From: Phycisphaerales bacterium
Lineage (GTDB): Bacteria > Planctomycetota > Phycisphaerae > Phycisphaerales > UBA1924
Assembly (NCBI GenBank): GCA_020831775.1
Contig: JAFIFZ010000079.1
Location: 186,001-250,000, forward strand
DNA: 64,000 nt
Direction of reading: 5' to 3'
Every line of letters starts with the position of its first letter. Position 1 is the stretch's first letter. Under the pieces are notes generated by a model. That model made no database searches. It was given only the letters and a program-made list of their open reading frames with translations, and was not told the origin of the DNA. This document shows positions 41,856-63,978 of the stretch, piece after piece. A program made the position numbers and the translations under genes.

Positions 41856-41885
41856 CTTTCCCGTTCCCCTCGCGCTGCGAGCGAG

Positions 41886-47020: not shown

Positions 47021-47955
47021 TCCGTCTCTGCGCCGGCGGGGATCCTCCGCCCCTTCGGCGCCGCGACTGTCTCGATGACTTCATCACCCCCCGAGACAAC
47101 CGCCCCGGGCATCACGATTGAACGAAGAACCACGGCCTCGGGTTCGATTCTCGCCCCCGGCATGACGACCGAATCCATCACCAACGCGTCTGAGGCGACC
47201 TCGGCGCGCTGCGCAACGACGCCGCGACGCCCCGCGCCGGGCATGGACGAGCCGGCGCCCCAGATCCGCGTCCGAGCGGGCTGACGCAGCCCGGAGGCCT
47301 CAAACGAACCCCGAATAAAGTCCTCCCGAGTCCGGAGCGAGATCGAGCCCTTGCCCGAAAGGTCGTGCACAATCGCCCGCATGCCTGCGCCGGAAACTTT
47401 CTGGAGCCACTGCTCCTTCAAGTCCAGGTAGCCCGCGTGCGGGATGAGCGCCAAAGACCGCTCGCTCGCGACATAGAGCCCCGCTGGCGAGCCGTCGGGG
47501 TTCCGCGCGATGGCGACATCGGCGCCGGTCTGTTCGTGCGCTTCGAGCAAGGTTCCCAGATCATCGGTCAGATAGCGGGCCCCCTCCGCGATGACTACGC
47601 GGGAGAGGCCAAGACCCTCGACCGCGTCGCGGACGGATCCGGCCGGCCCCCTGTATCCGGTGCGATCTTGAACGATCCGGACCCCCACCGCCCCTTCCGG
47701 CGAGGAGGGCGGCGCTCCGGCCCCTCCAAAGACGCACAGAATCTCCCGATCGATCCCCGCCCGAACAGCCGCGCCGATCCAGTGATCCAGCACCGTCCCC
47801 GTCTCGGAGAGCCAGAACGAGAGGACCGAGCATCCGGCCGCCTTCACCAGCGGCGAAGGCACCAGGCTCCCGGCGAGCAGTACCATACCGATCGCGCCCC
47901 GGGAGGACGCCCGGTCATGGCCGTCTGCGTTCGGATCGCTCTGCGAGCGGTCCAT
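47017..47955 (-). CDS. degenerate nucleotidyltransferase-like protein with hexapeptide tail
   Basis: The 312-aa protein starts at the ATG at 47955 with GGAGG about 11 bases upstream. The N-terminal region follows the NDP-sugar nucleotidyltransferase plan: GMVLLAGSLVPSPLVKAAGC, then SVLSFWLSETGTVLDHW. The G-x-G-T/S-R-x-x-P signature is missing (GSLVPSPL), so it is likely catalytically inactive. The C-terminus is a left-handed beta-helix-like run (ASDALVMDSVVMPGARIEPE, AVVLRSIVMPGAVVSGG). It overlaps the exosortase gene by four bases and shares architecture with the N-terminal part of the initiating transferase. A regulatory or scaffold role is possible. Confidence 0.75.
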   Translation of the reverse strand: MDRSQSDPNADGHDRASSRGAIGMVLLAGSLVPSPLVKAAGCSVLSFWLSETGTVLDHWIGAAVRAGIDREILCVFGGAGAPPSSPEGAVGVRIVQDRTGYRGPAGSVRDAVEGLGLSRVVIAEGARYLTDDLGTLLEAHEQTGADVAIARNPDGSPAGLYVASERSLALIPHAGYLDLKEQWLQKVSGAGMRAIVHDLSGKGSISLRTREDFIRGSFEASGLRQPARTRIWGAGSSMPGAGRRGVVAQRAEVASDALVMDSVVMPGARIEPEAVVLRSIVMPGAVVSGGDEVIETVAAPKGRRIPAGAETE

Positions 47956-48206
47956 CGGATCTGTGCCTCCCCCGCCCTCGTGAGGCGGGTTGCGGATCGG
48001 TCGAGCCGCCAGCTCTTTTACCGGACCAAGCGGAATGCCCCCCGCGCACCGGCCGGGCCGGCGCGAAGCAAGCGGGGTCATTGGCTCTCAACTGGTCTTT
48101 GTCGGCGCGAACGACCTGCAACACAACTGTAAGGCCCGATATCGGACGGGCTCCATGTTCTACGCACGCCACGATGGAATCTCGGCGGAATGAGCCGGCT
48201 TTGATC

Positions 48207-49427
48207 TCAACCGTTGGCTTCGAGCCCGAGCTCGGCCAGGGCCCGTTGGACCGACCGCCACTTCTCGGTCCAGGTCTGGGGGCGGACCCTGTCCCGGCCC
48301 GGCGCCGGATCGTGCCGCTGCTCGATGGCCTCTGAGATCTGGGCCGCGAACGCATCGGCGTCGGCCCCGACCCGGACAAGACCCTCATACCGTTCCAGCT
48401 CTGGAAAAGGCGTGCTGACCACCGGGCGGCCGACGGCCAGGTACTCCTTGAGCTTCACCGGATTGCACGCCCGGATCCAGTCGCTCTGGTTCCACGGCAT
48501 GATCAGCACATCCGCCGCGGCCATGTACGCGGGCACCTGCTCGTAGTCGCGCTTGCCCAGCAGCTTGACATTGGAGAGCTCGCACCAGCCCTCCGGCAGC
48601 GAACAGGCGCCGACGAGGAAGAAGTTGACCTCGGGCAGCTTCGACGCTGCGGCGACAAACAGCTCCGGATCGAAGGTGTGGCTGTCGATCCCGCCGATGA
48701 AGCCGACACGGGGCCGTGGGATGTCTCGAACATCCTCCGGTTCGGGCGCATCGCCCCGCCCCGCCTTCTCAAAGTCGGTCGAGTCGACGCCGTGGTCGAC
48801 GAACAACGCCCGCCGGCACCCCCCCGCCTCTTCCGCGTGCAGCCAGGAGGAGCAGAAGAGCGTCAGATCGGCGCGGTCCTTCAAAAACCGGTCGAAGCCC
48901 GCGATCCGCTCGGTGTCGACATTCGCAAACGCCTCGAAACGGTCCGTCCGCTGGTACACCACGCCCACGGCGTTCAGCCTGTCCACCACCTTCGCGCCCG
49001 GCGGGCAGGCGACCCAGACGAGCGGGCGCTTGATGCCGAGCTTCTTCGCTGCTCGCCTGACCTGCCACGCCAGCAGCGTGTCGTTGAACTTCCCCCCGAG
49101 CCCCGCGGGCGCAACAGCCGGGCTGAAGACCGCGAAGCGGTCGCGCACGCGCACCATGCCGCGGCGGAGGCTCTTGAGCTTGCGACGCACGCGTTGCACG
49201 AACATCCGCCCCTCGCGGGCGCTGGGCACGCGCATCCCGATGGAGTTGACATATAGGACCGGCAGCGAGGCGCTGCACTCGCGCATCATCTGCATGTCGT
49301 AGTGGCCGCGGTTGTGGTACCACCAGTCCTCGCCGCCGAAGCAGATGACGCCGTCGTACGCGCGAACATCGACCGGGGCATCGCGCGATGTGCTCGGAGC
49401 TTCAGACTCGACAGCGGCTCCGCTCAT
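48207..49427 (-). CDS. glycosyltransferase, GT-B fold (GT4-like)
   Basis: The 406-aa protein has a GT-B type C-terminal half: PRVGFIGGIDSHTFDPELF, then FFLVGACSLPEGW, the donor-site region PAYMAAADVLIMPWNQ and VKLKEYLAVGRPVVSTPFPE (the E-x7-E-like motif region). The N-terminal half has DDWWYHNRGHYD-like acceptor residues. It probably adds a sugar to the lipid-linked repeat unit. It overlaps the dehydrogenase gene by four bases (ATGA). The specific sugar cannot be told. Confidence 0.87.
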   Translation of the reverse strand: MSGAAVESEAPSTSRDAPVDVRAYDGVICFGGEDWWYHNRGHYDMQMMRECSASLPVLYVNSIGMRVPSAREGRMFVQRVRRKLKSLRRGMVRVRDRFAVFSPAVAPAGLGGKFNDTLLAWQVRRAAKKLGIKRPLVWVACPPGAKVVDRLNAVGVVYQRTDRFEAFANVDTERIAGFDRFLKDRADLTLFCSSWLHAEEAGGCRRALFVDHGVDSTDFEKAGRGDAPEPEDVRDIPRPRVGFIGGIDSHTFDPELFVAAASKLPEVNFFLVGACSLPEGWCELSNVKLLGKRDYEQVPAYMAAADVLIMPWNQSDWIRACNPVKLKEYLAVGRPVVSTPFPELERYEGLVRVGADADAFAAQISEAIEQRHDPAPGRDRVRPQTWTEKWRSVQRALAELGLEANG

Positions 49428-50770
49428 GCCTTGACCAGCCTCGCCCCCATGTCCGACGCGTACTCCCGCATCGCGTTCCGCGTGTCCACCACCAGCGAGG
49501 CGTGCCTCGCGAGCAACGAGTAGTCCACACGCTTGTGGTCCGTCGCGATCAGCACCGCGTCGAACCCGCCGACCGAGTCGGCCGTCAGCTCCACGCTCTT
49601 CATCCGCAGGTCGTGCTTGCGCACCTTCGGGGCGACGGGCACGTGCGGGTCGTGGTACTGCACCTCCGCGCCGAGGTCCATCAGCAGCTCGATCAGCTCG
49701 AACGCCGGGCTCTCGCGCGTGTCGTCGATGTCCGGCTTGTACGCCAGACCGATCACCAGCACCTTCGAGCCGCGCACCGGCTTGGCGTGCTCGTTCAGCG
49801 CCAGCGAGAGCTTCTCCACCACCCAGTGCGGCATCGAGGTGTTGATCGCGCCCGCCAGCTCGATAAACCGCGTCGCGTGCCCCACTTCCTTCGCCTTCCA
49901 GGTCAGGTAGAACGGATCGATCGGGATGCAGTGCCCGCCCAGCCCGGGGCCGGGGTAGAACGGCATGAACCCGAACGGCTTGGTGGACGCCGCACGCACA
50001 ACCTGCCAGATGTCGATGTCCATCCGATCCAGGATCATCTTCATCTCGTTGACCAGCGCGATGTTCACGGCACGGAAGATGTTCTCCAGCAGCTTGGCCG
50101 CCTCGGCCACCTCCGCCGACTCGACCTCGACCACCTGCGAGACGCCCCGCCGGTAGAGCATCGCCGCCAGCTCCGTCGACCGGTCATCGATCCCGCCGAC
50201 GAGCTTGGGGATCGTCGAGGTGCTGTGGTCCTTGCGGCCCGGGTCCTCGCGTTCGGGGCTGAAGGCGACGAAGAGGTCGTCGCCCGGCGTGAGCTTCACG
50301 CCGCGGGCCGAGGCCTCCTCGAGCATCGCCGGCAGGAACTCGTCGCGCGTCGTCCGCGGGTAGGTCGTCGACTCGAGCGTGACGAGCTGGCCCGGCCGCA
50401 GACAGCGGCCGATCGCCCTGGCCGAATCGATCACATACGAGAGGTCCGGCTCCTGGTGCCTGCCCAGCGGCGTCGGCACACAGACGATCACCACATCCGC
50501 CTCGCCGAGGCGCGAGAAATCGGCCGTCGCCTCGAAGCGGTCGCTTCCAGCGAGGTCGCCGGTCATCTCCGGGCCGAGGTGCCTGAGGTAGTTCTCGCCC
50601 CGCCCGAGCATCTCGATCTTCTCGGGGTCGATATCGAACCCGAGCACCGGCAGCCCCCCCCGATGCAAGGCATGGGCCAGCGGCAACCCGACATACCCGA
50701 GCCCCACAATCCCGACGATCGCCTCGCCCGACGCGATCTTGTCCTTGAGCTGCTGATAGGTGGTCGACAC
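49424..50770 (-). CDS. nucleotide-sugar 6-dehydrogenase (UDP-GlcNAc/ManNAc dehydrogenase type)
   Basis: It oxidises a UDP-sugar to the uronic acid with NAD. The product is 448 aa. GTG at 50770 is preferred: an AGAGG site lies about eight bases upstream, whereas the longer form begins with a low-complexity His/Ala run. IVGIVGLGYVGLPLA is the NAD loop; TLESTTYPRTTRDEFL is present; the catalytic Cys is in GPGLGGHCIPIDPFYL. The TYPRTTRDEF/GHCIPIDP pattern fits WbpA/WbpO-type enzymes (UDP-N-acetyl-hexosamine) better than UDP-glucose dehydrogenases, suggesting a hexosaminuronic acid in the polymer. Confidence 0.92.
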   Translation of the reverse strand: MSTTYQQLKDKIASGEAIVGIVGLGYVGLPLAHALHRGGLPVLGFDIDPEKIEMLGRGENYLRHLGPEMTGDLAGSDRFEATADFSRLGEADVVIVCVPTPLGRHQEPDLSYVIDSARAIGRCLRPGQLVTLESTTYPRTTRDEFLPAMLEEASARGVKLTPGDDLFVAFSPEREDPGRKDHSTSTIPKLVGGIDDRSTELAAMLYRRGVSQVVEVESAEVAEAAKLLENIFRAVNIALVNEMKMILDRMDIDIWQVVRAASTKPFGFMPFYPGPGLGGHCIPIDPFYLTWKAKEVGHATRFIELAGAINTSMPHWVVEKLSLALNEHAKPVRGSKVLVIGLAYKPDIDDTRESPAFELIELLMDLGAEVQYHDPHVPVAPKVRKHDLRMKSVELTADSVGGFDAVLIATDHKRVDYSLLARHASLVVDTRNAMREYASDMGARLVKA

Positions 50771-50881
50771 AGGTTCCTCTCCGTTCGCGGCCGCCGGTTC
50801 GGGGGTGGCGGCGTGGTGTGCAATCATTGGCATGCCGCAGGATCGATCGGATCGAGGGGGGCGCGGCTGGAGAGAAGCCTC

Positions 50882-51376: not shown

Positions 51377-51864
51377 AGCACCGCCCCTTCGAAACGCGGG
51401 GCTCGCTCTTGATCCCCTCGCCGTGTCCGGGCCTCGCCCGACACGCCGAGATGCTCCCACTGCGTCAGCCACTCATGGGCGTGCTTGCCCGCCATCCGCC
51501 CGGACATCGACAACTCCTCCGAGTTTGCGATGCTGTCGATCCACATCGTCCGAGCCCCCAGCAGCTTTGCAAACCTGATCGCGGCATACCCCGGCGCCGC
51601 ACCCGTCGTCACAACCACATCCGGCCGGACGCGAACCACCGCCCAGAGCACTGCCAGAAACATCCTCGCCACGGCGACCTTGTTCCATCGATTCGCGTCT
51701 GGAACAACGATCAACCGAGCCGGAGCAACATCCGCGGCGTACCCCGCCTCCGTCGTCAGAAAAACAACCTCGCACCCCTCGAACGCGGGGCGAAGGCGCA
51801 TAAGCTGCACCCAATGCCCGCCGCCGGAGGCGACAGCCAGAACCCGAGGTGCCGCCTCCTTCAT
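51373..51864 (-). CDS. Alg14-like glycosyltransferase membrane subunit
   Basis: The 163-aa protein begins MKEAAPRVLAVASGGGHWVQ, the Alg14 N-terminus (SxGGH). ARMFLAVLWAVVRVRPDVVV, then TTGAAPGYAAIRFAKLLGA follow the family. It recruits the Alg13 subunit to the membrane. ATGA overlap with the methyltransferase gene upstream; GTGA overlap with Alg13 downstream. The C-terminal 25 residues are Arg/Glu-rich. Confidence 0.88.
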   Translation of the reverse strand: MKEAAPRVLAVASGGGHWVQLMRLRPAFEGCEVVFLTTEAGYAADVAPARLIVVPDANRWNKVAVARMFLAVLWAVVRVRPDVVVTTGAAPGYAAIRFAKLLGARTMWIDSIANSEELSMSGRMAGKHAHEWLTQWEHLGVSGEARTRRGDQERAPRFEGAVL

Positions 51865-52550
51865 GCTTCGACCTCGGGAAATCCGCTGTACGCAACCCAT
51901 GATTTCACAAATGGACCGAAACGCTCTCCCCATAGAGTAGAGTCGGGAAACAGCTTCCTCATCTCTCTCTTGGTCACCAGACGAACTTCATCGACCAATT
52001 GCTTCGCCTTCTCAGGGTCACGCTCGGGCCCTCGCCAACCGCAGCGCCGGCGCCGGATCAGACTGTACCGAATCGATTTTGGAAGCCACTGCCACCCGGG
52101 GACATGGAAATGAGGCTCCATCGGAAACCAGTAGTTCGGCGTCTGCACCCAATAGGCCCCGGCGACCCGCCTCACCTCGGCAGCCATCTTCTCCTGGTTC
52201 TCATAGGTGAACACATGCTCAATCACCGAATTGCTAAACGCAATGTCGAATTCGCCGTCGGCGACACCATCAAGGCGAGTGGCGTCCCCAGCCTTGCTCT
52301 GTATGTTGCTGTACTTCGACTCCGACTCTTCAAGATTGATTAGAGTGATCTGGCGATCCTCGCGCCCAGCCCAACCCCGCCGCTCCCAGAACTCTACCGT
52401 GCCTCCGAGATCAATGATCGAGACAGTCTCCCCCAATGACTTGGTGATTTTATCAAATTTCTCGAATCGCCTTTGGCGCATTCGATTCATCATCGACTTG
52501 GGATTGCGCCAATCTGCCATCCCTCTGATGCCGCCGATCTTCTCACTCAT
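51861..52550 (-). CDS. class I SAM-dependent methyltransferase
   Basis: The 229-aa protein has the Rossmann methyltransferase motif I SIIDLGGTVEFW, motif II-like LINLEESESKY, an acidic GDATRLDGVADGEFDIAFS and the segment NSVIEHVFTYENQEKMAAEV, the SAM fold's motif IV region. It likely methylates a sugar of the polysaccharide or a lipid-linked precursor. Base composition is lower in GC than its neighbours, as for other glycan-specific genes in the region. It overlaps the GT2 gene by four bases. Confidence 0.85.
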   Translation of the reverse strand: MSEKIGGIRGMADWRNPKSMMNRMRQRRFEKFDKITKSLGETVSIIDLGGTVEFWERRGWAGREDRQITLINLEESESKYSNIQSKAGDATRLDGVADGEFDIAFSNSVIEHVFTYENQEKMAAEVRRVAGAYWVQTPNYWFPMEPHFHVPGWQWLPKSIRYSLIRRRRCGWRGPERDPEKAKQLVDEVRLVTKREMRKLFPDSTLWGERFGPFVKSWVAYSGFPEVEA

Positions 52551-53512
52551 GAAGGCTCCCCGGCTACCTTGTTATGGCACTTCGCCCAGTACGATCGATC
52601 ACGCCAGACCTTGATCCACACTTCCGATCGACGACGGTGCCGCCGAAACGGCGACCACGACAGCAAGGATCTCGACATCGGCCACAACAGCAGCAATGCC
52701 CTTGCTACGCCCCGACCAGCCTTCGACATGTGCCTCTCCACGAGTTGCATCTTTGCATTTAATATGCGACTAATTTTACCAGACTCAATCTTCTCCGAAG
52801 CCCCGCCATGGTGCACGATCACGGCATCGGCGGTGACCATTGGGCGCACGCCGAGCTTCTTCGCCCGCAGGCATAGGTCGGCTTCCTCGCCGTACATGAA
52901 GAACGCGGGGTCAAAGCCGCCGAGCCGGTCCCACAGGTCCCTTTTGATCAGAAAGAAGCAACCGCTAACGATGTCGACCTCGCGCTCCCCCTCGCTCCAC
53001 CAAGCCGAGACCGCCTCGGGGTTGAACACGCGGCTGCCAGAAAACGCCTTGCTCAGCCCGGACACCTGGCACACAAGGCTCCAGACCGTCATCCGCGTCC
53101 AGCAGGAACTCGGGTTCACACGCCCGTCGGCGAACACCGTCCTTCCGCCCCAGATCCCCGCCTCGGGGTTGGAATCCGCGAAGGCGAGTAGCTTGTCGAC
53201 CGCTCCGTCGAGCACCTCCGTGTCGGGGTTGAGAAGCAGCAGGTACCGCCCCGAGGCGTGCTCGGCGGCGGCGTTGTTCGCCCCGGCAAACCCCAGATTC
53301 TCCTCAGATCGGGTCAGCCGCACCCGCCCGCCGAACTCCGCCTCGATCGCGTCCGCCGAGCCGTCGCTCGACGCGTTGTCCCAGACGATGACCTCGTAGT
53401 CGCAACGGGTCTGGTCGATGAGAGTCCTCAACGCATCGAGCGTCAACTCGCGCGTGTTGTAGCTGATAACTAGGACGGAGAGCTCGGGGTTGTTCGCGTC
53501 GGCTCGGCTCAC
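52547..53512 (-). CDS. GT2 family glycosyltransferase (rhamnosyltransferase-like)
   Basis: The 321-aa protein has LSVLVISYNTRELTLDAL at the N-terminus, VIVWDNASSDGSADAI, GFAGANNAAAEHASGRYLLL and NPDTEV (DxD-type metal site), DIVSGCFFLIKRDLW and GFDPAFFMYGEEADLCLRA, all of the GT2 rhamnosyltransferase-like group. GTG start at 53512 overlaps the polymerase gene's stop. With rml genes nearby, dTDP-rhamnose is the likely donor, though not proven. Confidence 0.9.
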   Translation of the reverse strand: MSRADANNPELSVLVISYNTRELTLDALRTLIDQTRCDYEVIVWDNASSDGSADAIEAEFGGRVRLTRSEENLGFAGANNAAAEHASGRYLLLLNPDTEVLDGAVDKLLAFADSNPEAGIWGGRTVFADGRVNPSSCWTRMTVWSLVCQVSGLSKAFSGSRVFNPEAVSAWWSEGEREVDIVSGCFFLIKRDLWDRLGGFDPAFFMYGEEADLCLRAKKLGVRPMVTADAVIVHHGGASEKIESGKISRILNAKMQLVERHMSKAGRGVARALLLLWPMSRSLLSWSPFRRHRRRSEVWIKVWRDRSYWAKCHNKVAGEPS

Positions 53513-54906
53513 GATGGGCTGGTCTCCGCACGGCTGGGCTTGAGCAGGTCCGCGGTCCGAGCCGCGCAGACGGGACGCATCGCCCTCACCGCCCGCGGCC
53601 TCGCCGCCCACTCCCCGATGCTTCCCGCCATCGCCAGCGTCAGGAACCAGAGCATAATAATCTGGCCGAAGTATGAAACGCTGATAAAGCTCACCAGGTG
53701 AACTCCCAGCGAGATCAACACCGCCCAGACGATGACTGACTTCACCCTGTCGCCACTGTAGGTGTCAACCGCTCGGAGCAGAAGCTGCAACGCAGCCCCG
53801 ATCATCAGCAAATAGACGATCAAGGTAACGAGACCTCCACGAACCGCCTCAAGGATGTATTGGTTTGTAATGTCCGCGACCCCCGCCCCATGAAAATCGG
53901 CCAGAAACGCAATATCGGTCGCCCCGAGCCAGATCCACTTGTCGGGGTGCGACATAAAGCTATCAATGAGTTGATATCGATGATAACCGGTAGATCCTCC
54001 CACGAAATCAATCCGTCCGATGAGGTGCCACACAGGCGCGTTCATTGCGAAGTGAAGGCCTACGAGCATGACGACACCCGCCGCCAGCATCAACCGCGAG
54101 TACTTCCGCAACGGGTAGAGCCCGGCGATTGCAAAGGCAACACCCGCCGACGCCACCGGGCCGCTCGATGCGCACATCACGATGATCCCAAGGGAGCAGA
54201 CGATACCCGCAAAGACAAGCGGCCGCCGCCGCGGGTTGGTCCACCACTGCAAGGCGATGAACGGCATCGCCACGGCCCAGAATGTACCGGCAAGGATTGC
54301 ATGGGCGAAAGCGCCCCTGGCCCGCAGCTTTCCATCCCGAACCCCAGTATGCTCCGGAATACCACCGAAGATTGAGAATAGGTTTCGTCCCGTGCTTTTC
54401 TCAACGAGAAACACGCAGAGTACCGGGATCACAATAATCGCCAGCGCAAATCCCACCCCGACGATATCCCTCCACTCGCGGATCAGACATCGGAACAGAA
54501 AGTACATCCCTGCCCCGTCAAAGATCCACCCCGACCGATTCACCACCGCATCCGGCGTCCCCTCCCTGATGATGTAGATCGCCGCCCCCGCCACCAGCCA
54601 GGCGCACAGAAGCGCGTCAACTCGGTTGAACCGAACACCAAGGTACTCCTGCCGCAACAGCACCCGCGCCGCCCCAAACAGCACCATGATCCGCAGCAGG
54701 TTGAAATCAGCACCAGCGATCACGATCCGCTGACTCATCGCGACGAAACAGCAGATCACCAGCATCGGCAGCACCGCATGCCGCCGAGGGAGCAGCAGCA
54801 GCGCGACCCCGCAAACGAGCATCGCCGCCACCCCCAAGGGATGCAGCGTCGTCTGACCCACGAATTCAGAGCTTTGGCCAGCCTGTTGAGCCAAGTAAAA
54901 CGGCAC
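53509..54906 (-). CDS. O-antigen ligase/polymerase-like membrane protein (Wzy candidate)
   Basis: The 465-aa protein is very hydrophobic with about 11 membrane helices (MLVCGVALLLLPRRHAVLPM, VICCFVAMSQRIVI). A large periplasmic loop between helices holds GGSTGYHRYQLIDSFMSHPD, the typical Wzy/WaaL acceptor loop. GTG start at 54906. In a Wzx/Wzy-type locus it is the polymerase; ligase function cannot be excluded. Confidence 0.85.
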   Translation of the reverse strand: MPFYLAQQAGQSSEFVGQTTLHPLGVAAMLVCGVALLLLPRRHAVLPMLVICCFVAMSQRIVIAGADFNLLRIMVLFGAARVLLRQEYLGVRFNRVDALLCAWLVAGAAIYIIREGTPDAVVNRSGWIFDGAGMYFLFRCLIREWRDIVGVGFALAIIVIPVLCVFLVEKSTGRNLFSIFGGIPEHTGVRDGKLRARGAFAHAILAGTFWAVAMPFIALQWWTNPRRRPLVFAGIVCSLGIIVMCASSGPVASAGVAFAIAGLYPLRKYSRLMLAAGVVMLVGLHFAMNAPVWHLIGRIDFVGGSTGYHRYQLIDSFMSHPDKWIWLGATDIAFLADFHGAGVADITNQYILEAVRGGLVTLIVYLLMIGAALQLLLRAVDTYSGDRVKSVIVWAVLISLGVHLVSFISVSYFGQIIMLWFLTLAMAGSIGEWAARPRAVRAMRPVCAARTADLLKPSRAETSPS

Positions 54907-54909
54907 GGC

Positions 54910-56253
54910 TCACCCGCTCCCCGCGGGCGCCCCCGCCCTCGACACCACCCGCTCGACAAACCCCGCCAGCCGCTCCGTCAGCGCACGCCGCTCGAACTCC
55001 CCCACCCACGCCTCAGGCGCACGCCGCCCGACAGAGCGCCCCACAACACCCTCCAGCTCACGAAGCCCCCGCACAATATCCCCCGGGTCGCACGGCTCAG
55101 CCACCACCCCCACCCCGCTCCGCTCCACGAGCTCCCGAGCGTCACCCTCGGGCAAAAGCCCCAGGATCGGCCGCCCCGTCGCCAGATACTCGTAGGTCTT
55201 CCCCGGCACGATCCTGCTCCGTTCACCCTTCGCCAGCCCGTGCAACGGCAGCAGCAACGCCTCCGCCAGGCGGATATGACGCACCGCCTCCGTGTGCGGC
55301 ACATACCCGTGAAACCGCACCGCATCGCCGGCGCCCGACGACGCCACTGACGCCTTATCGGCATCCGTCGCTGTGCCGATCACCTCGATACGGACGCGAC
55401 CGCCCAAAGGATCGCCCGTCTCCCGCAGACGACGCACCGCCTCCAGCACATGCACCAGCGTCCGCCCTGAGTAGTCGATCCGCTCCGGCGAATACCCCAC
55501 CAAACGCTTCACCGCACCACGAACACCAGCATACCACGACTGAACCAAGGTGCAGAGCGTACCCGAGTGGACGATTCGGAGCACACCCTCTTCCCCCGGA
55601 TCCCAAAGCGAAGGCTCGCCCGGATCGCCCTCGAAGTCCGCGGCGTCGTACCCGTTCGGAATCACCGTCAGCCGCTCAGGATCCAACCCCGGAAAGTGCT
55701 CGACAAACAACCTCCCACATTCGGGGGTGTTCGCGATCACGCCGTCCGCCGCCTCCAGCGCCGCCTTCATCTCCTGAAACTGCCGACGCCAGTGCCACTT
55801 GGTCTTGTGCGGCTGCCAGCCGTCCAGTGCCCACGGGTCACGCAGGTCCAGAACAATCGGCGTTCCGGGCCGACGCTCTCGCACGATCGCCGCAGAACGC
55901 ACCAGAGAGAACGGCGACATCGTGTACACCACGGCGTCCGCCCGACCCGCATCGATCAACTCGCAAACAGCATCCGCCGTCGCAACAGACCACCCCTCCA
56001 GCCCGTCGATCAGACCAGCGACCCCCTCAGCCGCAGGCACACGGACAACCTCGCACCCGATCGCGCTGTCAAGCTCGGCGGCGAGTGAGGAATCCGGCGG
56101 ACGAGTCCAATTGAAGTCACCGAGCAGACCGTGCGTGATCACGCCGACATCTATCCCCGTTGCCGGAAGGTACTTGCTGAACTTCCACGGCCGCTGAGCA
56201 CCGGCGCCGCCGTCGGGCGGAAAGTAATAAGACACAATCAGTAGCCTATTCAC
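54910..56253 (-). CDS. GT4-like glycosyltransferase
   Basis: The 447-aa protein begins with GTG; MNRLLIVSYYFPPDGGAGAQ is the GT-B acceptor-side start, ERLTVIPNGYDAADFEG the hinge. The C-terminal half has RIEVIGTATDADKASVASSG, AVRFHGYVPHTEAVRHI, and KTYEYLATGRPILGLLPEGD with the donor-site Glu. GGAG lies eight bases upstream. It is separated from the polymerase by three bases. Confidence 0.9.
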   Translation of the reverse strand: MNRLLIVSYYFPPDGGAGAQRPWKFSKYLPATGIDVGVITHGLLGDFNWTRPPDSSLAAELDSAIGCEVVRVPAAEGVAGLIDGLEGWSVATADAVCELIDAGRADAVVYTMSPFSLVRSAAIVRERRPGTPIVLDLRDPWALDGWQPHKTKWHWRRQFQEMKAALEAADGVIANTPECGRLFVEHFPGLDPERLTVIPNGYDAADFEGDPGEPSLWDPGEEGVLRIVHSGTLCTLVQSWYAGVRGAVKRLVGYSPERIDYSGRTLVHVLEAVRRLRETGDPLGGRVRIEVIGTATDADKASVASSGAGDAVRFHGYVPHTEAVRHIRLAEALLLPLHGLAKGERSRIVPGKTYEYLATGRPILGLLPEGDARELVERSGVGVVAEPCDPGDIVRGLRELEGVVGRSVGRRAPEAWVGEFERRALTERLAGFVERVVSRAGAPAGSG

Positions 56254-56273: not shown

Positions 56274-57059
56274 TTAGACGGACCGCCCCGCTGACTCCAT
56301 GTACAACATACGATACTGGCCGCGGCGCCCCCCCCCTTGCCTTGCGCGATATGCTGAGAGACGCCTCAACGCCCTGCAGGTGAGATATCTATAACAACTG
56401 TACTGATCAGCAACGAGCAACCTTGCAGGGGTAGGCAGCACGCCACCACAGCCAGCACCCCACTTCGCCATCAGATGCGAAGAAGCCAAGGAGTAAGACT
56501 CATCAATATTGCCGGGAGACAGGTGAACAACGGGACAGTCGATAGCCATCGCCCGAAAGCCGCTACTCCACGCCTGACAGGCTATGTCTGCGCCGTAACA
56601 ATGAAATCCAGGCAAAGTTTCATCGAATCTCAATCCACAGCCTTGACGCACCACAAGCAAGCACTCGTCAAGCGACACGACCTCGCGCGGAAGCCTCCGC
56701 GACTTATAGTGCCCGTGGGGATCGATGATATGTCCGCACAATTCACCCCAACGGGTGCACCCCATAACGCCCAATATCGCAACTTCTGGCGGCAACCCTG
56801 CAATTATGTCTAACAATCGCCTTATCCAATTGGCTGGAAACACAACATCCTGATGCGCAATCACAGTCCACGCACAATCAGACTGGAAGACCGCTGCATT
56901 AAGCGCCTGCCCCGCATTCATCCCAGCCTTGCTGGGATCACACGGATGAACCTTGACATCAATGCCCTGACGATCAGGCGACAACGACTGTCTCATGATG
57001 TCGAACAACGCCGAATCGTTGACCATAGTGACCACATTGATCTCATCGCTAGCGGACAT
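56274..57059 (-). CDS. glycosyltransferase-like protein (GT2/StrF-type domain)
   Basis: The 261-aa protein has an N-terminal INVVTMVNDSALFDIMR and CAWTVIAHQDVVFPANWIRR, resembling the GT2-like domain of StrF-type proteins, including the IAHQDVxFP motif. GFHCYGADIACQAWSSGF and CPVVHLSPGN follow. Metal-site residues are less clear than in its GT2 neighbour. Its lower GC content separates it from the upstream genes of the locus. Confidence 0.75.
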   Translation of the reverse strand: MSASDEINVVTMVNDSALFDIMRQSLSPDRQGIDVKVHPCDPSKAGMNAGQALNAAVFQSDCAWTVIAHQDVVFPANWIRRLLDIIAGLPPEVAILGVMGCTRWGELCGHIIDPHGHYKSRRLPREVVSLDECLLVVRQGCGLRFDETLPGFHCYGADIACQAWSSGFRAMAIDCPVVHLSPGNIDESYSLASSHLMAKWGAGCGGVLPTPARLLVADQYSCYRYLTCRALRRLSAYRARQGGGRRGQYRMLYMESAGRSV

Positions 57060-57071
57060 AGGGCTCCCAGT

Positions 57072-58523
57072 CTACTCTGCAACCATGCCTCGTCTTGCCG
57101 CCAACATCGTACGCAACGATACGAGCCTACCAAGCTGCCATGCGGAAAACGCGAACACCGGCGTAGAAACGATGGCGGCCAGAGCAATCACATGGATTCC
57201 CTCAAGACCCATCAAATGGTTCACGATGTACATGCACGCAAGTCCGAAGCATGCCGCAGCACAAACATCCCACGCCTCGCCGAGCAACTCCGCCAAACTA
57301 ACGCGTATCTCCTTTCGCAGAAAATATGCGCCAAGACAGAGGGCCGGGATCATTGCCGCCGCTGTTGCGTACGCCATCCCCAGCGCTCCGAACTTAAGCA
57401 CCAGCCAGAAGCCAAGACCGTAGATCACAGCGAGGCGCGGAATCTGGCATGCGCGATCGAGCGACGGTCGCCCAACCGCCCAAAAGAGCGGACCCATAAC
57501 GGCGAGCAACATCGTGAGCGTGCTGCTCAGCGCCAAAAGTGCAAAGACCATTGGGTCTGCTCTGTAGGGCTCCCCGTACAGCAGCACGCCCAGCTCCGCG
57601 TCGACAAAGATCAACGCCGCACACAAAGGCGCCGAGAGTAAGCAGACGCCGCGAAAGCTCTTCAGCCAAGCCGCCTTGAGCCGATCCCGATCGTGAGTCA
57701 ACTTTCTGTACGCAGGCATCGCAACCGTACCGACAGCGTTCAAGGCGATCTCGACCGGCAATCTTGCGAGTCTCTGATGCAACGCAAAGATACCCAATAC
57801 CCCAAGACCCACCATCCTGCCAAGAAGGATAGTAGCCGCGGATGCGATAAGGAACAGGATAAACGGTGTCCCGGCCGCACTGAGCCCATACACACGGATC
57901 GCCCGCCATGATGGGCCGTCGAAGACGAACCCGGGCTTCATCGGCGCAACAATGTACGACAAAATAGTGATCGCCAGCTGGATCGACAACTGCCCGATCA
58001 CCAGCGCCCATGCGTTCTGCAAAGCAATCGCCAGGGCAATACTGACCACAAGGCCGATCACTGTTGCGGCAAGCCGATACAGCGACCAGACCTTGAAGTT
58101 TAGTTCCTTGACCAAAACCTGGGCACGCGGGCTCGCGAGACCCGTAAGCAGTGGGTGGAGTGCGATGACACCGAAAAGCGCCACCTCGGCGGGATGCCCA
58201 AAGAACGATGCCGAGATCGGCGCCAGCAGGACGAGCAACGCCGCAATCAAAACACCCCTGACAAACGCGACCCAGAATACCGTTTGAAGAAATCGCAGGC
58301 TACGGCCGCGCTCGTTGTGGACGATCGCCTGGTCCGTTGCCAGAAAACTGATCGCTTCCATTGCACCCAAGGCGAGAAACGCGGCCTGCATCAATCCGAA
58401 GTCGTGAGGACTCAGCATCCTCGCAAGCAGGATATTGGTCGCCATGCGAAGAAGCTTGTCCCCTCCGCGAGCTGAAAACTGCCAGATCAATCCAACAAGA
58501 AATTGTCGTTGTAAAGCAGACAC
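57072..58523 (-). CDS. polysaccharide flippase (Wzx-like, MOP superfamily)
   Basis: The 483-aa protein has 12-14 membrane helices; NILLARMLSPHDFGLMQAAF near the N-terminus is the Wzx/RfbX signature, and AFLALGAMEAISFLATDQAI follows. It flips the lipid-linked repeat unit across the inner membrane. GTG start; ribosome-binding site weak. The low-GC composition is like that of the neighbouring glycosyltransferase and the 3' half of the beta-helix gene. Confidence 0.9.
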   Translation of the reverse strand: MSALQRQFLVGLIWQFSARGGDKLLRMATNILLARMLSPHDFGLMQAAFLALGAMEAISFLATDQAIVHNERGRSLRFLQTVFWVAFVRGVLIAALLVLLAPISASFFGHPAEVALFGVIALHPLLTGLASPRAQVLVKELNFKVWSLYRLAATVIGLVVSIALAIALQNAWALVIGQLSIQLAITILSYIVAPMKPGFVFDGPSWRAIRVYGLSAAGTPFILFLIASAATILLGRMVGLGVLGIFALHQRLARLPVEIALNAVGTVAMPAYRKLTHDRDRLKAAWLKSFRGVCLLSAPLCAALIFVDAELGVLLYGEPYRADPMVFALLALSSTLTMLLAVMGPLFWAVGRPSLDRACQIPRLAVIYGLGFWLVLKFGALGMAYATAAAMIPALCLGAYFLRKEIRVSLAELLGEAWDVCAAACFGLACMYIVNHLMGLEGIHVIALAAIVSTPVFAFSAWQLGRLVSLRTMLAARRGMVAE

Positions 58524-58636: not shown

Positions 58637-60814
58637 TCAGTCAAACGCCCCAAGTGTGGTCAATTTGCTCCGAGAGTTACCAAGAATATCTACAGGAACT
58701 CTACTCGACGCACGATCGCGCAGGATCGAGCTAGAACTGGGCACAAACTTCCCGCTCGCTGAAACGGAGAACCCCGGATCTCCCGTCGTGACGCCATCTC
58801 CCAAAACAAGTACGCCCCACACATTATGGTCTATAAAGTGATTATTATTGTACCATTCATCGAGCGCCAAAGGAGTATTGCCGTTGATTGACGATGTCGC
58901 AACACGACGCCAGACAGAGTTCTTGACTCTTATGTTGGTCGCATTTGCGGTCCGCCAAACCCACGACATATTTGGCATCGACACATGATTGACAAACAGG
59001 TGATCGATCGGCACGTCTCCAATTTGGCTTACCGCATATCCGGACTTCTTGTCGATGGACACATTGACAAAGGCGATGTTTGAAGCAGACTGGACGCCTT
59101 GGATGAACAGGCCTTGCGCATCGACTCGCGTAGCCATCACTCCGTACAATATGACATTATCGATGTCGGTTGTCGGACCAAACAACTGAAAGACATCCGG
59201 GTGCGCGTCCGAGCCTTGTCTGTCAATATTGTTTACAGAAGAGTTGACGACAAAATAGCTATTGTGGAATGCGTCGGACCCGATCCCGTCAATGTTGACA
59301 TTGCGAACAAGCGTCTTTGTAACCATAGCATCCCTGTAGTTGGCGAAGTGTGAATCTGTCACATACTTACCTGCGAAGTGTGAACGAGTGGGTGGTCCCG
59401 AAAAATGATTCTTTCCGTTTCCAGTAACACTATCGAGCCAAATGCTCCAGCCTAGTGTATTAAAGCCGGCAATCACCCAGCCGTCCCGTTGATCCAGCGT
59501 AACATCACTAAGGCGAACTCTATCAATGCGTAGCCGATTCTCTCCAGAAATGAGTTTCACATTCTCCCTGGTAGCACCCGGCGCCTTGGTGATAGTTGTC
59601 CATCCCAACCCCGCTGTCGGCTGTGGGAAGCCGGACCCCCCATACTCGTACTCGCCCTCTTCAAGATAGATCGTCACATTGTCAAGCACCGGCCCCGCCG
59701 AGCGGATCGCTCCCCAGATCGTTCGATACGGCCTGTCTCTCGTCCCGTCCCCCGTCTCGTCGCTGCCGAGCTCCGAGACATACCGCTCCGCCTTGGGCAG
59801 CGTTTCGCCAGCGTTGGCGTACAGGAACATCGAATGTTCGCCGTTGCGAACACTCAAATCATTCCCCGCCAAAACCCGCGGCACCCCCACCTTCGGGTAC
59901 GCCACAGCCCGGATCTCCACCGGCCCGTCCTGGAAGTCCGCGGCGTCCAGCACCACCGTGTACTCCCACACATCCGTCCGCGGGTTGTGCTGCATCTCGT
60001 CGACGCGCACCCACGGCCCGCCCTCGGCGGAGAACAGCACATGGTCGATGTCGTTCATGTGGAACGCCACCACACCGATGTGGAACTCGCCGTCGATCAC
60101 CTGGTACGGCACCACATCCCAGCGGGCGATCGCCTTGGCGTCGTACCCCGGGACCTCCGGGTGGCCGACCGGATTGCTGTTGGGCATGAACTTGTCGAAC
60201 CCATTACCCGGGACGAGCCGGGCAAAGGTCTCGCCGCTGCTGCCGGGGTCATTGCTCCCGCCGGAGCCGGGGCTACCGGAACCGGGGTCTCCCCCGCCGC
60301 CCGATCCGCTGCCGGTGTCACCGCCCGAACCGGGGTCACCCCCGCCCGAACCACCCGATCCACCCGAACCACTGCCGCCTGACCCGCCCGAACCCGATCC
60401 ACCGGAACCACCAGAGCCGCCGCCGCCGACCTGGCCGTTGATGATCACGCGCTCTGTCCCGCCGGCGATCGGCTTGAGGCCGCCGCCGGAGAGGTCCAGG
60501 GGCGCACGGACGACGACCGAAGCCGTGCGGTCCTCGCGGAGCTGGACGAGCCTGCTCAGGGCGTCGCCCTGCCTGTCCTGGATCCTGGTGACCGCCCGCG
60601 CCGCCCTGGCGTCGGCCGTGACGGGCTGGCCCGCGCCGCCGGAGACCGATCCCGCCGTGCGCGAGGTCACGACGCGGTTGGTCCGCTCGTTGTCGTTGGC
60701 CGGCTCGGCGAGCGCGTGGACGACACCAAAGCCAAAGATCGCCATGCCTGTGGCGAGGTACGCCGTGCGGCGGCCGGCGAGGCTCTTGGGCTGGCGGGCG
60801 TTGCGGATGGTCAT
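58637..60814 (-). CDS. secreted right-handed beta-helix protein with Gly/Ser linker
   Basis: The 725-aa protein starts at an ATG at 60814 with GGAGGG upstream; the long frame before it is excluded. A signal or anchor (LATGMAIFGFGVVHALA) is followed by a helical region, then a Gly/Ser/Asp/Pro-rich low-complexity linker (about residues 127-200, GGSGGSGSGGSGG repeats). Residues about 210-330 form a beta-rich domain. Residues about 340-725 are a right-handed parallel beta-helix with a pectate lyase-like pattern (NVTIYLEEGEYEYGGSGF, ...SVNNIDRQGSDAHPDVFQL). It may bind or cleave the locus polysaccharide. Base composition changes sharply inside the gene: the linker is about 75% GC, the 3' part 40-50%. 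Confidence 0.8.
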   Translation of the reverse strand: MTIRNARQPKSLAGRRTAYLATGMAIFGFGVVHALAEPANDNERTNRVVTSRTAGSVSGGAGQPVTADARAARAVTRIQDRQGDALSRLVQLREDRTASVVVRAPLDLSGGGLKPIAGGTERVIINGQVGGGGSGGSGGSGSGGSGGSGSGGSGGSGGGDPGSGGDTGSGSGGGGDPGSGSPGSGGSNDPGSSGETFARLVPGNGFDKFMPNSNPVGHPEVPGYDAKAIARWDVVPYQVIDGEFHIGVVAFHMNDIDHVLFSAEGGPWVRVDEMQHNPRTDVWEYTVVLDAADFQDGPVEIRAVAYPKVGVPRVLAGNDLSVRNGEHSMFLYANAGETLPKAERYVSELGSDETGDGTRDRPYRTIWGAIRSAGPVLDNVTIYLEEGEYEYGGSGFPQPTAGLGWTTITKAPGATRENVKLISGENRLRIDRVRLSDVTLDQRDGWVIAGFNTLGWSIWLDSVTGNGKNHFSGPPTRSHFAGKYVTDSHFANYRDAMVTKTLVRNVNIDGIGSDAFHNSYFVVNSSVNNIDRQGSDAHPDVFQLFGPTTDIDNVILYGVMATRVDAQGLFIQGVQSASNIAFVNVSIDKKSGYAVSQIGDVPIDHLFVNHVSMPNMSWVWRTANATNIRVKNSVWRRVATSSINGNTPLALDEWYNNNHFIDHNVWGVLVLGDGVTTGDPGFSVSASGKFVPSSSSILRDRASSRVPVDILGNSRSKLTTLGAFD

Positions 60815-61310
60815 GGGGCTCCCTCCTGACGGGTGGGCGTGCGTGGCGTGCTCCGAAATTCCCCTCGATCGAGTGTTGATCTTGGAGCCGGAGATCGGAT
60901 GGGCGTCGGCCCAACCTTCTTCGAACCCCCCGCTTCCCGGCGTCGCCCGGCTTTCCCAGCCGGACCATCCGCGAACCTCGTCCCAGGCCGCATGCCCTCC
61001 AGGGGTTATCAGACCAGCCGCACGCCGGACCTTCCGGCGTTGCTCGGAAAGGATCCATCGGCGGTCGGGCCGGTCGGATCCATCGTATCGGGCCGGGCAA
61101 GTCGCCGTACGGCCCACCTTACCCAGATTCACCCGCAGCCCGGGATCACGCACTTCGGCCCATGCCGCAGTGGACGCCGAATCGGTACGCGGCACTCTGG
61201 AGCGGGTTCGGTCCGATTACCGACAGCGGTCGCATCGGCGGATCTGGGCATTGCCCCATAAAGTCTGTGTCACGATCGCCCGTCCGGCAAGTGCCGCGAG
61301 CGGCGGGCGT
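60815..61310. other. intergenic region between the beta-helix gene and tRNA-Leu
   Basis: No gene is supported in these 496 bases. They hold the promoter of the minus-strand gene starting at 60814. CGCCGG/CCGGCG-type hairpins (near 61030) and short GC-rich repeats are present, but no riboswitch consensus was recognised; c-di-GMP classes were looked for and not seen. Confidence 0.4.
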
Positions 61311-61396
61311 GGGTCCGTGGCGGAATCGGCAGACGCGGCGGATTTAAAATCCGCTCCCCGGATACGGGGGTGAGGGTTCGAGTCCCTCCGGACCCA
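61311..61396 (+). tRNA. tRNA-Leu (anticodon UAA)
   Basis: The acceptor stem GGGTCCG (61311-61317) pairs with CGGACCC (61389-61395), discriminator A at 61396. The anticodon stem GCGGA/TCCGC encloses TTTAAAA with anticodon TAA at 61345-61347. A long variable arm (CTCCCCGGATACGGGGGTGA region) and the T arm GGGTTCGAGTCCC are typical of Leu. CCA is not encoded. Confidence 0.97.
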
Positions 61397-61428
61397 TTTG
61401 GCTTGATTCGGCTCGGCCTGGCCGGCGT

Positions 61429-62685
61429 CTATGCAGGATGGCGGCCGAGCGCCTCGTTCAACCGCTCGATGAGTTCTGGATCGACGCCCTCGGTCATCTC
61501 CAGCATGTCGGGGTGGACGATGCCCGATTCCAGAGCGTCGGCGATGATGTACTCGCGGAGCCACGGGTCTGGCACGCGGAGGGCAAGCAACTCGCGGACG
61601 GCGATCGCGTCGTCGACCCGGTCCGCCGCGAGCAGGGACTTGTAGATCGTCGACAAGTCCCGCCCGAGCAGGTCGTTGACGACCCCGAGGGCCTCCACTT
61701 CTTCCATGAAGCCGTCGAGCTCCGCATTTGCACGCAGCTCGTTGAACATCCTCAGGTGCGATTGCAAGTCTCGCTGCACCCGCAGCGTGGGGTTGTCGAA
61801 CATCCGCCCGAGATCGACCCAGCGCCCGTGCCTCCGGAGCAACCCGTCGACTCGGTGGCTCACCCGCTGGATGGTCTCGCGCCCGTGCTCGTCGTCGTTG
61901 ACTCGATCAAACCAGTCGAGCGACCGCTGGTCGTCGCCGACGACTTGGTTGAGCACGATCCAGTCGTCGAGATCGTCGATGCTCGCCTCACCCGCCCTGA
62001 GCTTCTCTTCTTCACGGTCCCTGATCTGGGTGAATCGACGCTTGGCGGGGGCGTGCTCGTCGGCGAGCCGCCTCATGTCGCCAGCCATGAAGGATATGCG
62101 CACGCCGCTCCACTGTGCCCGCTCGACCATGTTGTCCCAGAGCCATGCGTAGTTCTCGGCCGCCTCGTCGAGCTTGCCCTGATGCACCTGCTCGCGGGCG
62201 AGGTCGAGGCGTGCGTGGACATCCTCACGGGCCCGCTGGGCCAGATCGCGCAGCTCTTCCTCACCGATCGCCTCGCCCCGCTTTGCCGCCTCCAGAAACG
62301 CGAGCATCTGCGCCGGAGTCTGGTAGCCCGTGACTCGGGCGAAGTCCTCGCCTTCCCTGAACACAATGATCGTCGGCATCGCGCGGATGCCGAGCTCGCG
62401 GGCCAACTCCCGCTCCTGGTCGACATCGACCGCCACCGCGATCGCGTGCTCGCGGATGAACGCCGCCAGCTCCGGGTTCGGCCAGGTCTCGCGGTCCATC
62501 CTGCGGCAGGGGCCGCACCAGACCGCCGTGCCCTTGACCACCAGCAGCCGGTTCTCGTCCACCGCCTGGGCCTTGGCCTCTGCGAAGGGCTTGTCTGCAA
62601 AGACCCCGTCGGGGGCGGCCGACGCGACGCCGCACGAGAGCAACACCGCACACGCCAACAACACAATTCTTGATGCGCACTGCAT
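61429..62685 (-). CDS. periplasmic thioredoxin-fold protein (CGPC active site)
   Basis: The 418-aa protein has a signal peptide (LLACAVLLSCGVASAAP) and a thioredoxin-fold domain (about 25-140) with VVKGTAVWCGPCRRMD (Cys57, Cys60) and cis-Pro in MPTIIVFREG. Residues about 145-415 are helical, probably TPR-like, and unlike known thioredoxin partners. Such thioredoxin plus helical-repeat proteins are typical of this phylum. It follows its paralogue with a 30-base gap, probably one transcript. Confidence 0.85.
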   Translation of the reverse strand: MQCASRIVLLACAVLLSCGVASAAPDGVFADKPFAEAKAQAVDENRLLVVKGTAVWCGPCRRMDRETWPNPELAAFIREHAIAVAVDVDQERELARELGIRAMPTIIVFREGEDFARVTGYQTPAQMLAFLEAAKRGEAIGEEELRDLAQRAREDVHARLDLAREQVHQGKLDEAAENYAWLWDNMVERAQWSGVRISFMAGDMRRLADEHAPAKRRFTQIRDREEEKLRAGEASIDDLDDWIVLNQVVGDDQRSLDWFDRVNDDEHGRETIQRVSHRVDGLLRRHGRWVDLGRMFDNPTLRVQRDLQSHLRMFNELRANAELDGFMEEVEALGVVNDLLGRDLSTIYKSLLAADRVDDAIAVRELLALRVPDPWLREYIIADALESGIVHPDMLEMTEGVDPELIERLNEALGRHPA

Positions 62686-62715: not shown

Positions 62716-63978
62716 CTACTGCGGCGACCTCTCCGACAGCAATCTCTGCAATCTCTCCCGCGTCGCGGGATCCGCACGATCCGCCAGCTTCGACAGGTCG
62801 TTGTGCAACACGCCCGAATCCAGCGCGTCGCGGAGCATGAACTCATGGATCGATCCGTCGCGGACGCGCTCCGTCGCGAGCTCCCGCACGCCGATCGCCT
62901 CGTCGACCCTGCCCGCCGCGAGCAGCGACTTGTAGTACAACGAGACCTTCTCGGCGATGGAATCGTGCTGGCGCCGGATCATCTCGTCGGGATCGGCGCC
63001 GAATGGCATATCGCCCGCGTGCTGGCGGATCCGCTGGATGAACTGCTCGTTCACCTCGAACTTGATCCGGATCGACATCAGCGGCTCCTCGATCAAGAGC
63101 CCGTAGTCGCCCCACCTGCCCTCCCGCTGAAGCAGGCGTTCAACGGTGTGGCCCGCGCGTCGCATCGACTCGACGCCTTCGGGATCGTCCTTGACCCGGT
63201 CGACCCAGTCGAGGATCCGCTGGTGGTCGCCGAGCTCGTTGCAGAGCACGAGCCAGTCGCGGAGGTTCGAGAGCGTGCCCATGCCCTCCTGAAGCATCCG
63301 CTCGTCGTTGTCGCGCACCGCGGCGAAGGCTTCCCGGGCCGGCGGGTGCTGCCTTGCGAGCTGCCCGATGTTGCCGGCGAGGAACGACATCCGCATCGGC
63401 CCCTTGGACGGATCGACCTGGTGGATGTTCTCCCAGAGCCAGAGAAGCTCTTCGGTCGCCTTGTCGAGCTCGCCGTACTGCATGAGTTCGAGCGCGCGGC
63501 CGTACCGCTCCTGCATGTCCAGACCCGGGTCGTCGCGGAGCGCTCGGAGGTCGGACTCCTCGGCGATCTCGCCGCGTTCGGCTGCTCGAAGGAACAGCAA
63601 CATCTGCGGCGCGGAGTGGAAGCCGACGAGCCTTGCGAACTCCTTGCCGTCACGGAAGGCGATCACGGTCGGCAGCGTCCTGACCTCCAGCGACTCAACG
63701 AGCTCTCGTTCGTTGTCGGCATCGACCGCGACAATGATCGCGTGGCGCCCGATCCACGCCGCGAGCTCCTCATCTGGCCATGTCTCTCGGTCCATCCGGA
63801 CGCAGAAGCCGCACCAAGGGGCGGTCATCTTGGCGACGAACAAACGCTTTTCTTGCTGAGCCTCTGCCATTGCTGCATCGAACGGCTTGTCGGAGAACAC
63901 TCCCGCCGGAGCGGCCCTCGCAACGCCGCAGCAGAGAGCGGCACACACGGCAGAAACCAGTATCGCCCGCACAAACAT
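62716..63978 (-). CDS. periplasmic thioredoxin-fold protein (CGFC active site)
   Basis: The 420-aa paralogue has a signal peptide (LVSAVCAALCCGVARAAP) and the motif APWCGFCVRMD (Cys56, Cys59), a cis-Pro in LPTVIAFRDG and the same helical C-terminal region (YGRALELMQYGELDKATEEL). The active-site Phe in place of Pro should raise the redox potential compared with CGPC. A GGGAGG site lies before the ATG at the window's end. Two unequal active sites suggest division of labour in disulfide exchange. Confidence 0.85.
   Translation of the reverse strand: MFVRAILVSAVCAALCCGVARAAPAGVFSDKPFDAAMAEAQQEKRLFVAKMTAPWCGFCVRMDRETWPDEELAAWIGRHAIIVAVDADNERELVESLEVRTLPTVIAFRDGKEFARLVGFHSAPQMLLFLRAAERGEIAEESDLRALRDDPGLDMQERYGRALELMQYGELDKATEELLWLWENIHQVDPSKGPMRMSFLAGNIGQLARQHPPAREAFAAVRDNDERMLQEGMGTLSNLRDWLVLCNELGDHQRILDWVDRVKDDPEGVESMRRAGHTVERLLQREGRWGDYGLLIEEPLMSIRIKFEVNEQFIQRIRQHAGDMPFGADPDEMIRRQHDSIAEKVSLYYKSLLAAGRVDEAIGVRELATERVRDGSIHEFMLRDALDSGVLHNDLSKLADRADPATRERLQRLLSERSPQ

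Follow-up and report, generated by a model that had tools for sequence, protein, structure and literature searches.

In variable capsule and O-antigen cassettes, conserved ends enclose a variable centre of low GC, and beta-helices of the lyase or epimerase type work on uronates. Phage depolymerase tailspikes and receptor-binding proteins, according to the portion of the source available, are built from an N-terminal structural part, which is conserved, and a part giving depolymerase specificity, which is transferred horizontally when the polysaccharide changes (PMC6872550). RbmB of Vibrio cholerae, as described in the available part of its report, is a beta-helix polysaccharide lyase that is encoded in the biofilm gene cluster and acts on the cell's own polymer (PMC11637428). 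Among the papers listed by the literature searches, no description appeared of the protein family examined here, or of helix exchange in exosortase loci.

In this study, we analysed a window of 64,000 nucleotides from a Phycisphaerales bacterium, in which a frame at 58637–60814 (−), open from ATG to TGA, encodes a protein of 725 aa. We think it probable that this is an exported protein of two parts, in which an Ig-like domain is constant and a parallel beta-helix is swapped together with the genes of a glycan cassette; as the helix would be replaced along with the downstream cassette genes, the left border of the cassette would lie inside the gene. In this respect the locus differs from capsule and O-antigen cassettes, since one border appears here within a gene, between two domains. 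If this reading is right, a protein family that is unannotated (the window protein has no Pfam match) and whose halves have different histories would be named, and the helix type would predict the cassette, which would permit a sequence-based grouping of planctomycete exopolysaccharides. It would also provide a series of swaps made in nature between polymer-editing enzymes whose putative active sites are conserved, and a variable glycan cassette whose border crosses a gene.

As in the tailspikes, within what the available part of PMC6872550 covers, a constant structural part is joined to an exchanged specificity part, at the level of the family and by extension probably in the window gene. Unlike tailspikes, the window protein is encoded by the cell, among the genes that make the polymer, and has an Ig-like domain as its constant part; no phage genes were seen beside the gene, and those annotated around it are of the exopolysaccharide cluster or thioredoxin-like. 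By analogy, a tailspike-like modularity encoded by the cell is conceivable, with a fixed Ig docking domain that would tether the protein to the machinery of export or of the surface, a plug-in beta-helix enzyme exchanged with the glycosyltransferases whose product it edits and the Ig-coding DNA serving as a crossover arm for planctomycete polymer cassettes, and we put this forward tentatively. The window protein resembles RbmB (PMC11637428) in being a parallel beta-helix protein encoded in a polymer gene cluster, with action on its own polymer being putative here. It differs from RbmB (PDB 9ozl/9ozd) in sequence, with approximately 12% identity over 272 aligned residues, and the available part of PMC11637428 notes neither an Ig domain nor domain exchange. 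The parallel beta-helix is also common to AlgE mannuronan C5-epimerases and PL6 alginate lyases, with Z of 16–18 over about 250–320 residues, and their uronate substrates would suit the dehydrogenase in the window cluster; unlike these enzymes, the window protein matched no Pfam family at E 1 and no NCBIfam family at E 0.01. In the accessible text on exosortase/EpsH exopolysaccharide loci (PMC1569441), EpsH and EpsI-type genes stand amid genes for a sugar transferase, a flippase and glycosyltransferases, as they do here. That text treats PEP-CTERM substrates, and the words 'beta helix' occur 0 times in the main text of the paper; the window protein, which ends ...RSKLTTLGAFD, shows no PEP-CTERM signal (C-terminal PEP motif, transmembrane stretch and basic end).

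Protein architecture and the exopolysaccharide cluster

The gene is preceded by a ribosome-binding site, AGGAGGG, read in the sequence at 60821–60827 (−) before the ATG at 60814. The start codon, a signal peptide recognised by eye (...GVVHALA|EP) and the head occupy 60440–60814 (−; aa 1–125), followed by a Gly/Ser/Asp linker seen in the translation at 60227–60439 (−; aa 126–196). The Ig-like beta domain (59792–60226, −; aa 197–341) was delimited by alignment, with model strands at model residues 33–119, and the parallel beta-helix (58637–59791, −; aa 342–725 and stop), which is the AT-rich and variable part, by the structure model and fold matches. Modelled together with 42 relatives from named contigs, the core (aa 197–725) reached a mean pLDDT of 91.1 and a pTM of 0.93, and it is predicted with good model quality to consist of an Ig-like beta domain with a parallel beta-helix C-terminal to it. 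Family matches among the 43 aligned sequences were weak, to Big_7 for the Ig domain of 3 and to DUF1565 (PF07602) for 6 (best E 3.8e-5), the latter leaving the window protein unmatched.

By VIA-align the model scored equally well, at Z of 16–18, against a range of proteins that includes PL6 alginate lyases, AlgE epimerases, pectate lyase Pel9A and RbmB; the top values were 18.1 to 7dmk and 18.0 to 2pyh, with many beta-helix families equal. These fold neighbours of the model indicate the fold and not the function, and they do not separate lyase, epimerase, hydrolase and non-enzyme. A PDB sequence search with the window protein returned mainly chance matches to the Gly/Ser linker, and a PDB profile search gave a weak match to BT_1002 (75 positions, E 5.5e-6). 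Within the helix, W459, T486, R504 and H538 were present in 52/52 copies and D540 in 51/52; the invariance of the first four and near-invariance of the last, despite very low helix identity, point to a single putative active site combined with substrate surfaces that vary. The helix is therefore probably a polymer-specific catalytic part of the lyase or epimerase kind, judging from these residues and from the PL6 lyases, AlgE epimerases and RbmB among the fold neighbours. A non-enzymatic role, as a matrix protein binding the polymer for structure or adhesion, would fit a fold common to enzymes and non-enzymes, the lack of a match to any curated enzyme family and the repeat-rich heads of some relatives, which suit a surface protein. 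We consider this doubtful, given that the invariant W/T/R/H and near-invariant D in a helix otherwise 29% identical suggest a common active site.

The gene is the first in a Phycisphaerales exopolysaccharide cluster of the Wzx/Wzy type, linked to an exosortase, in which EpsH, a sugar transferase, a flippase and glycosyltransferases occur in a single cluster, with a TPR protein also encoded there. All cluster genes listed here are on the (−) strand. Next to the helix lie a Wzx-type flippase (57072–58523; PF13440, E 1.4e-51; GC3 0.67) and a putative glycosyltransferase of 261 aa (56274–57059; PF13712, E 2e-4, which is below the family cut-off; GC3 0.59), the latter matched in the cassette comparison in G122 only. 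They are followed by a glycosyltransferase of family 4/group 1 (54910–56253; PF13439, PF13692), a putative Wzy-type polymerase (53509–54906), which is proposed from its place, length and hydrophobic sequence, matches 0 Pfam families and is kept in 20 other loci, a family 2 glycosyltransferase (52547–53611; PF00535; 20 other loci) and a methyltransferase (51861–52550; PF08241). The conserved core begins at the UDP-glucose/GDP-mannose dehydrogenase (49424–50833; PF03721/PF00984/PF03720), after which come a group 1 glycosyltransferase (48207–49427; PF13692), the exosortase EpsH (46133–47020; PF09721, E 7.9e-50), an EpsI-type protein (DUF3485; 45438–46190; PF11984), a Wzc/BY-kinase-like P-loop protein (43337–45451; PF13614) and the initiating sugar transferase (41886–43340; PF02397, E 2e-58). 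The presence of the dehydrogenase is suggestive of a polymer containing uronic acids, and the substrate of the helix may accordingly contain uronates.

Upstream of the helix gene there are three adjoining thioredoxin-fold paralogues (61429–62685, 62716–63978 and, just outside the window, C81:250028–251269), the other two being 75% and 45% identical to the first; long relatives occur in some genera only. A tRNA-Leu(TAA) gene at 61310–61397 (+), approximately 500 bases upstream of the helix gene and within the region missing from the congeners, is a possible insertion landmark.

Composition break within one reading frame

Within a single intact frame, GC3 falls from approximately 0.9 to 0.53, and the GC counts given by the initial annotation were exact (47 of 60 bases at 60241–60300 and 24 of 60 at 59401–59460). 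GC3 was approximately 0.94 in aa 1–125, 0.70 in the linker and 0.88 in the Ig-like domain; along the helix, divided into three consecutive parts, it was 0.65, 0.54 and 0.55. In bins of 25 codons it was 0.88–0.96 up to aa 125, lower in the Gly/Ser linker, about 0.9 again at aa 200–300, and 0.36–0.68 past aa 400. The best single change point was aa 377 (window 59686; support interval aa 358–418, about 59563–59743), with a log-likelihood ratio of 53, linker excluded; 500 permutations reached at most 7.8, and the break is therefore not due to chance. A GC3 ramp over aa 290–430 (59525–59947, −) exceeded the step by 3.6 log units with one extra parameter; the change that had been placed near 59600–59680 is thus real, but it is a gradual transition and not a sharp junction. 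An explanation of the GC drop by amino-acid composition alone was rejected, as the drop sits in third positions.

A ramp instead of a step is in keeping with a history without exchange, in which the helix diverged in place under diversifying selection and became AT-rich through local mutation bias or weak codon selection; we regard this as unlikely. Replacement of the helix would instead agree with the codon usage on the two sides of the transition. A host codon index built from 24 called genes of window 1–46000, with 90 host windows for ranking, was 0.77 for the head and 0.68 for the Ig domain, both host-like, and 0.39, 0.35 and 0.32 for the three parts of the helix, among the lowest 1–3% of the host windows. 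The flippase (0.39) and the 261-aa glycosyltransferase (0.33) resembled the helix, and the index climbed back along the cassette as far as the dehydrogenase and exosortase (GC3 0.93 and 0.88); on the other side, the upstream thioredoxin-like genes had GC3 of 0.86–0.87. The foreign composition of the helix, like that of the adjoining flippase and glycosyltransferase, was therefore borne out, but for the proposed import neither donor nor sister allele was found among the relatives, the closest helix to that of the window being 38% identical (G114b).

Two congeners match window 38064–49088 (92%) and 40362–47953 (94%), and the match resumes at C81:256064 with up to 97% identity. The approximately 21 kb between (window 49089 to C81:256064), including the whole gene, was not found in the two congener assemblies (89% and 79% complete), whose contigs end exactly at both borders, so that absence and misassembly are indistinguishable there. 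From this block, only a tRNA-Leu and a short thioredoxin-like piece were found in the congeners, and a search of both for the 354-aa glycosyltransferase gave no match. Because the whole gene lies in this block, the head cannot be called native: the head and Ig domain are host-like in codon use, but the initial annotation's view of head and linker as native is not proven by this. The missing block, flanked on both sides by matches of 92–97% DNA identity, could also mean that the entire locus, head and Ig domain included, was acquired at once from a donor in which the GC break already existed. We judge such an acquisition quite improbable, since an assembly break at those contig ends may account for the absence and the head, Ig domain and thioredoxin-like genes have host-like codons. 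Beyond the gene, interspersed repeats were seen at L025:9346–9470 and L025:11750–12010 (near 257.4 and 259.9 kb of C81); both congener genomes carry related copies by the dozen.

Helix and Ig-like domain among relatives

A contig search with the single window protein found no relatives, and an alignment query found them. The gene was present in 26/163 genomes of the family, and the helix alone was matched in 46/400 genomes of the order; named relatives came mostly from Phycisphaerales and other Planctomycetota MAGs, and the remainder carried labels including Hydrogenedentota, Sneathiella and Sumerlaeota. A set of 52 copies was assembled after dropping 7 of 47 named loci as partial or divergent (L115, L128, L137–L139, L141 and L142), together with duplicates of G rows. 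Of 28 genomes, 26 had a flippase in the 10 kb downstream, both misses (G010 and G173) having a contig end near the gene, and 15 had an exosortase no more than 25 kb away; in 6 of the 7 species of genus g24 the exosortase was elsewhere in the genome.

The mean identity of relatives to the window protein was approximately 0.56 in the Ig domain and about 0.29–0.30 in the helix. Heads were very diverse, with Fn3-like repeats (seen by eye) and Pro-rich or Gly/Ser stretches. Among the 49 of 52 heads compared (3 of 40 residues or shorter were omitted), most had no detectable match, and the window head matched 0 of the 48 others. The Ig-like domain, and not the head, is thus the constant part common to all copies, so that the conserved secretion head proposed in the initial annotation was not supported. 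A conserved head with a swapped helix was likewise rejected as a description beyond the level of the genus, again with most heads lacking a detectable match. Second copies of the Ig and helix pair were seen at G114:C1 (L074), G070:C39 (L075) and G150:C247 (L076); in the G114 pair the helices are 75% alike and the Ig domains 62%, opposite to the usual pattern.

Within genus g24, all seven species have a left flank of three genes in common, their heads can be aligned and their Ig domains are 56–88% identical. Five species share helices of 65–86% identity, and those of G120 and G122 show only 23–29% identity, whether compared with these five or with one another; the expectation that heads match while helices differ was thus confirmed inside this genus but not outside it. 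The genus code came from the search, but the genus was singled out after its identities were seen; with this selection, g24 as a single clade was rejected by the helix data (dlnL 155, p 2e-5) and not rejected by the Ig data (dlnL 5, p 0.41). The Ig and helix trees rejected each other (p 3e-4 and 8e-5, with no split-half control). The G120 helix was nearest to other genera, with 52% to G140 and 41% to G146 (BLAST, without alignment), and similarity between helix types faded around the Ig/helix junction, near the composition transition of the window gene. Both the bimodal helix identity in g24, where site, heads and Ig domains correspond, and the G120 helix being closer to other genera than to its congeners argue against divergence in place. 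The Ig data, from a short alignment of 147 columns, did not significantly reject a clade of G120, G140 and G146 (p 0.295). In the window gene (G000) the Ig domain is nearest to G140 (71%), but the helix is only 29% identical, and the helix data reject the pair (p 7e-5). The Ig sisters G134 and G077 are also helix sisters with weak support (83), which fits fast divergence there rather than a swap and favours divergence in place for that pair. As these pairs and the trio were picked from identities, their p values are optimistic.

These results support that the helix varies separately from the rest of the protein and along with the glycan cassette. For the window gene itself, the composition break and the Ig/helix conflict with G140 suggest an exchange rather than extreme divergence in place, with a crossover that may lie in the Ig-coding stretch. 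The swap of a polysaccharide-specific domain that the initial annotation had called likely is thus supported in part: for the family by g24, the trees and the cassette coupling, and for the window gene we infer it.

Helix type, cassette content and GC3 across copies

Helix type is coupled to cassette content. Across 25 loci (300 pairs), helix identity predicted the sharing of cassette families given Ig identity (partial r 0.35, p 0.0005), and Ig identity given helix did not (r 0.04, p 0.36); helix and cassette sharing were also correlated in the 273 pairs of different genera (r 0.32, p 0.0035). The result for all pairs held in 9/9 settings of identity threshold and distance (helix r 0.31–0.39, p ≤0.004; Ig p ≥0.07). 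This test left out 6 of 31 copies, namely the second copies G114b, G150b and G070b, G010 and G173 with a contig end near the gene, and, by the analyst's choice, G053, whose neighbours match none of the cassette genes of the window. The same full-length protein beside different glycan loci, which would speak against a swap, was weakly seen, as G118 and G119 have the same helix type (65%) and 0.40 of cassette families in common.

GC3 of the helix was significantly lower than that of the Ig domain in 11 of the 52 copies, higher in one (G070, by 0.06) and neither in 40, so that a GC drop as a trait of every such helix was rejected. That 11 of the 12 significant shifts are downward, and that 0 of the 11 low-GC3 copies rise significantly, is what AT-ward drift during divergence in place would give; the 40 copies without a significant shift, whose helices are equally divergent, stand against it. 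Helix GC3 rose and fell with the GC3 of the two genes immediately downstream (Spearman 0.58, n 28; 0.39 as a partial correlation given Ig), and the downstream genes were also below the Ig domain in G000, G118, G119 and G137. In G047, G114b and G140, a low-GC3 helix is followed by genes of higher GC (0.74, 0.94 and 0.87), near the Ig values; co-import with the cassette is therefore not general, and a low GC3 limited to the helix in these copies suits divergence in place. The low-GC tract of G119 consists of a helix of its congeners' type and the next two genes (GC3 0.54 and 0.53), which have no relatives in the compared set, and it suits import of the helix and its neighbours from a lower-GC relative.

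Considering the exchange reading again, we propose a plausible model for the locus. The signal peptide, identified by eye, would export the protein; the Ig domain, constant through the family, would probably dock or position it; and the helix would edit the polysaccharide produced by the neighbouring glycosyltransferases. When the polymer changes in a lineage, the helix would tend to be replaced together with the cassette genes that come first downstream, in many cases by DNA from a source of lower GC, through recombination close to where the Ig-coding stretch ends.

Two observations concern the cassette of G140. It contains an FrhB/FdhB-type gene (F420 hydrogenase beta subunit-like; L083:4624–5907), with equivalents in 10 other loci, which shares 62–71% identity with the top five of its matches from other genera, and a polysaccharide pyruvyl transferase gene immediately follows the helix gene.
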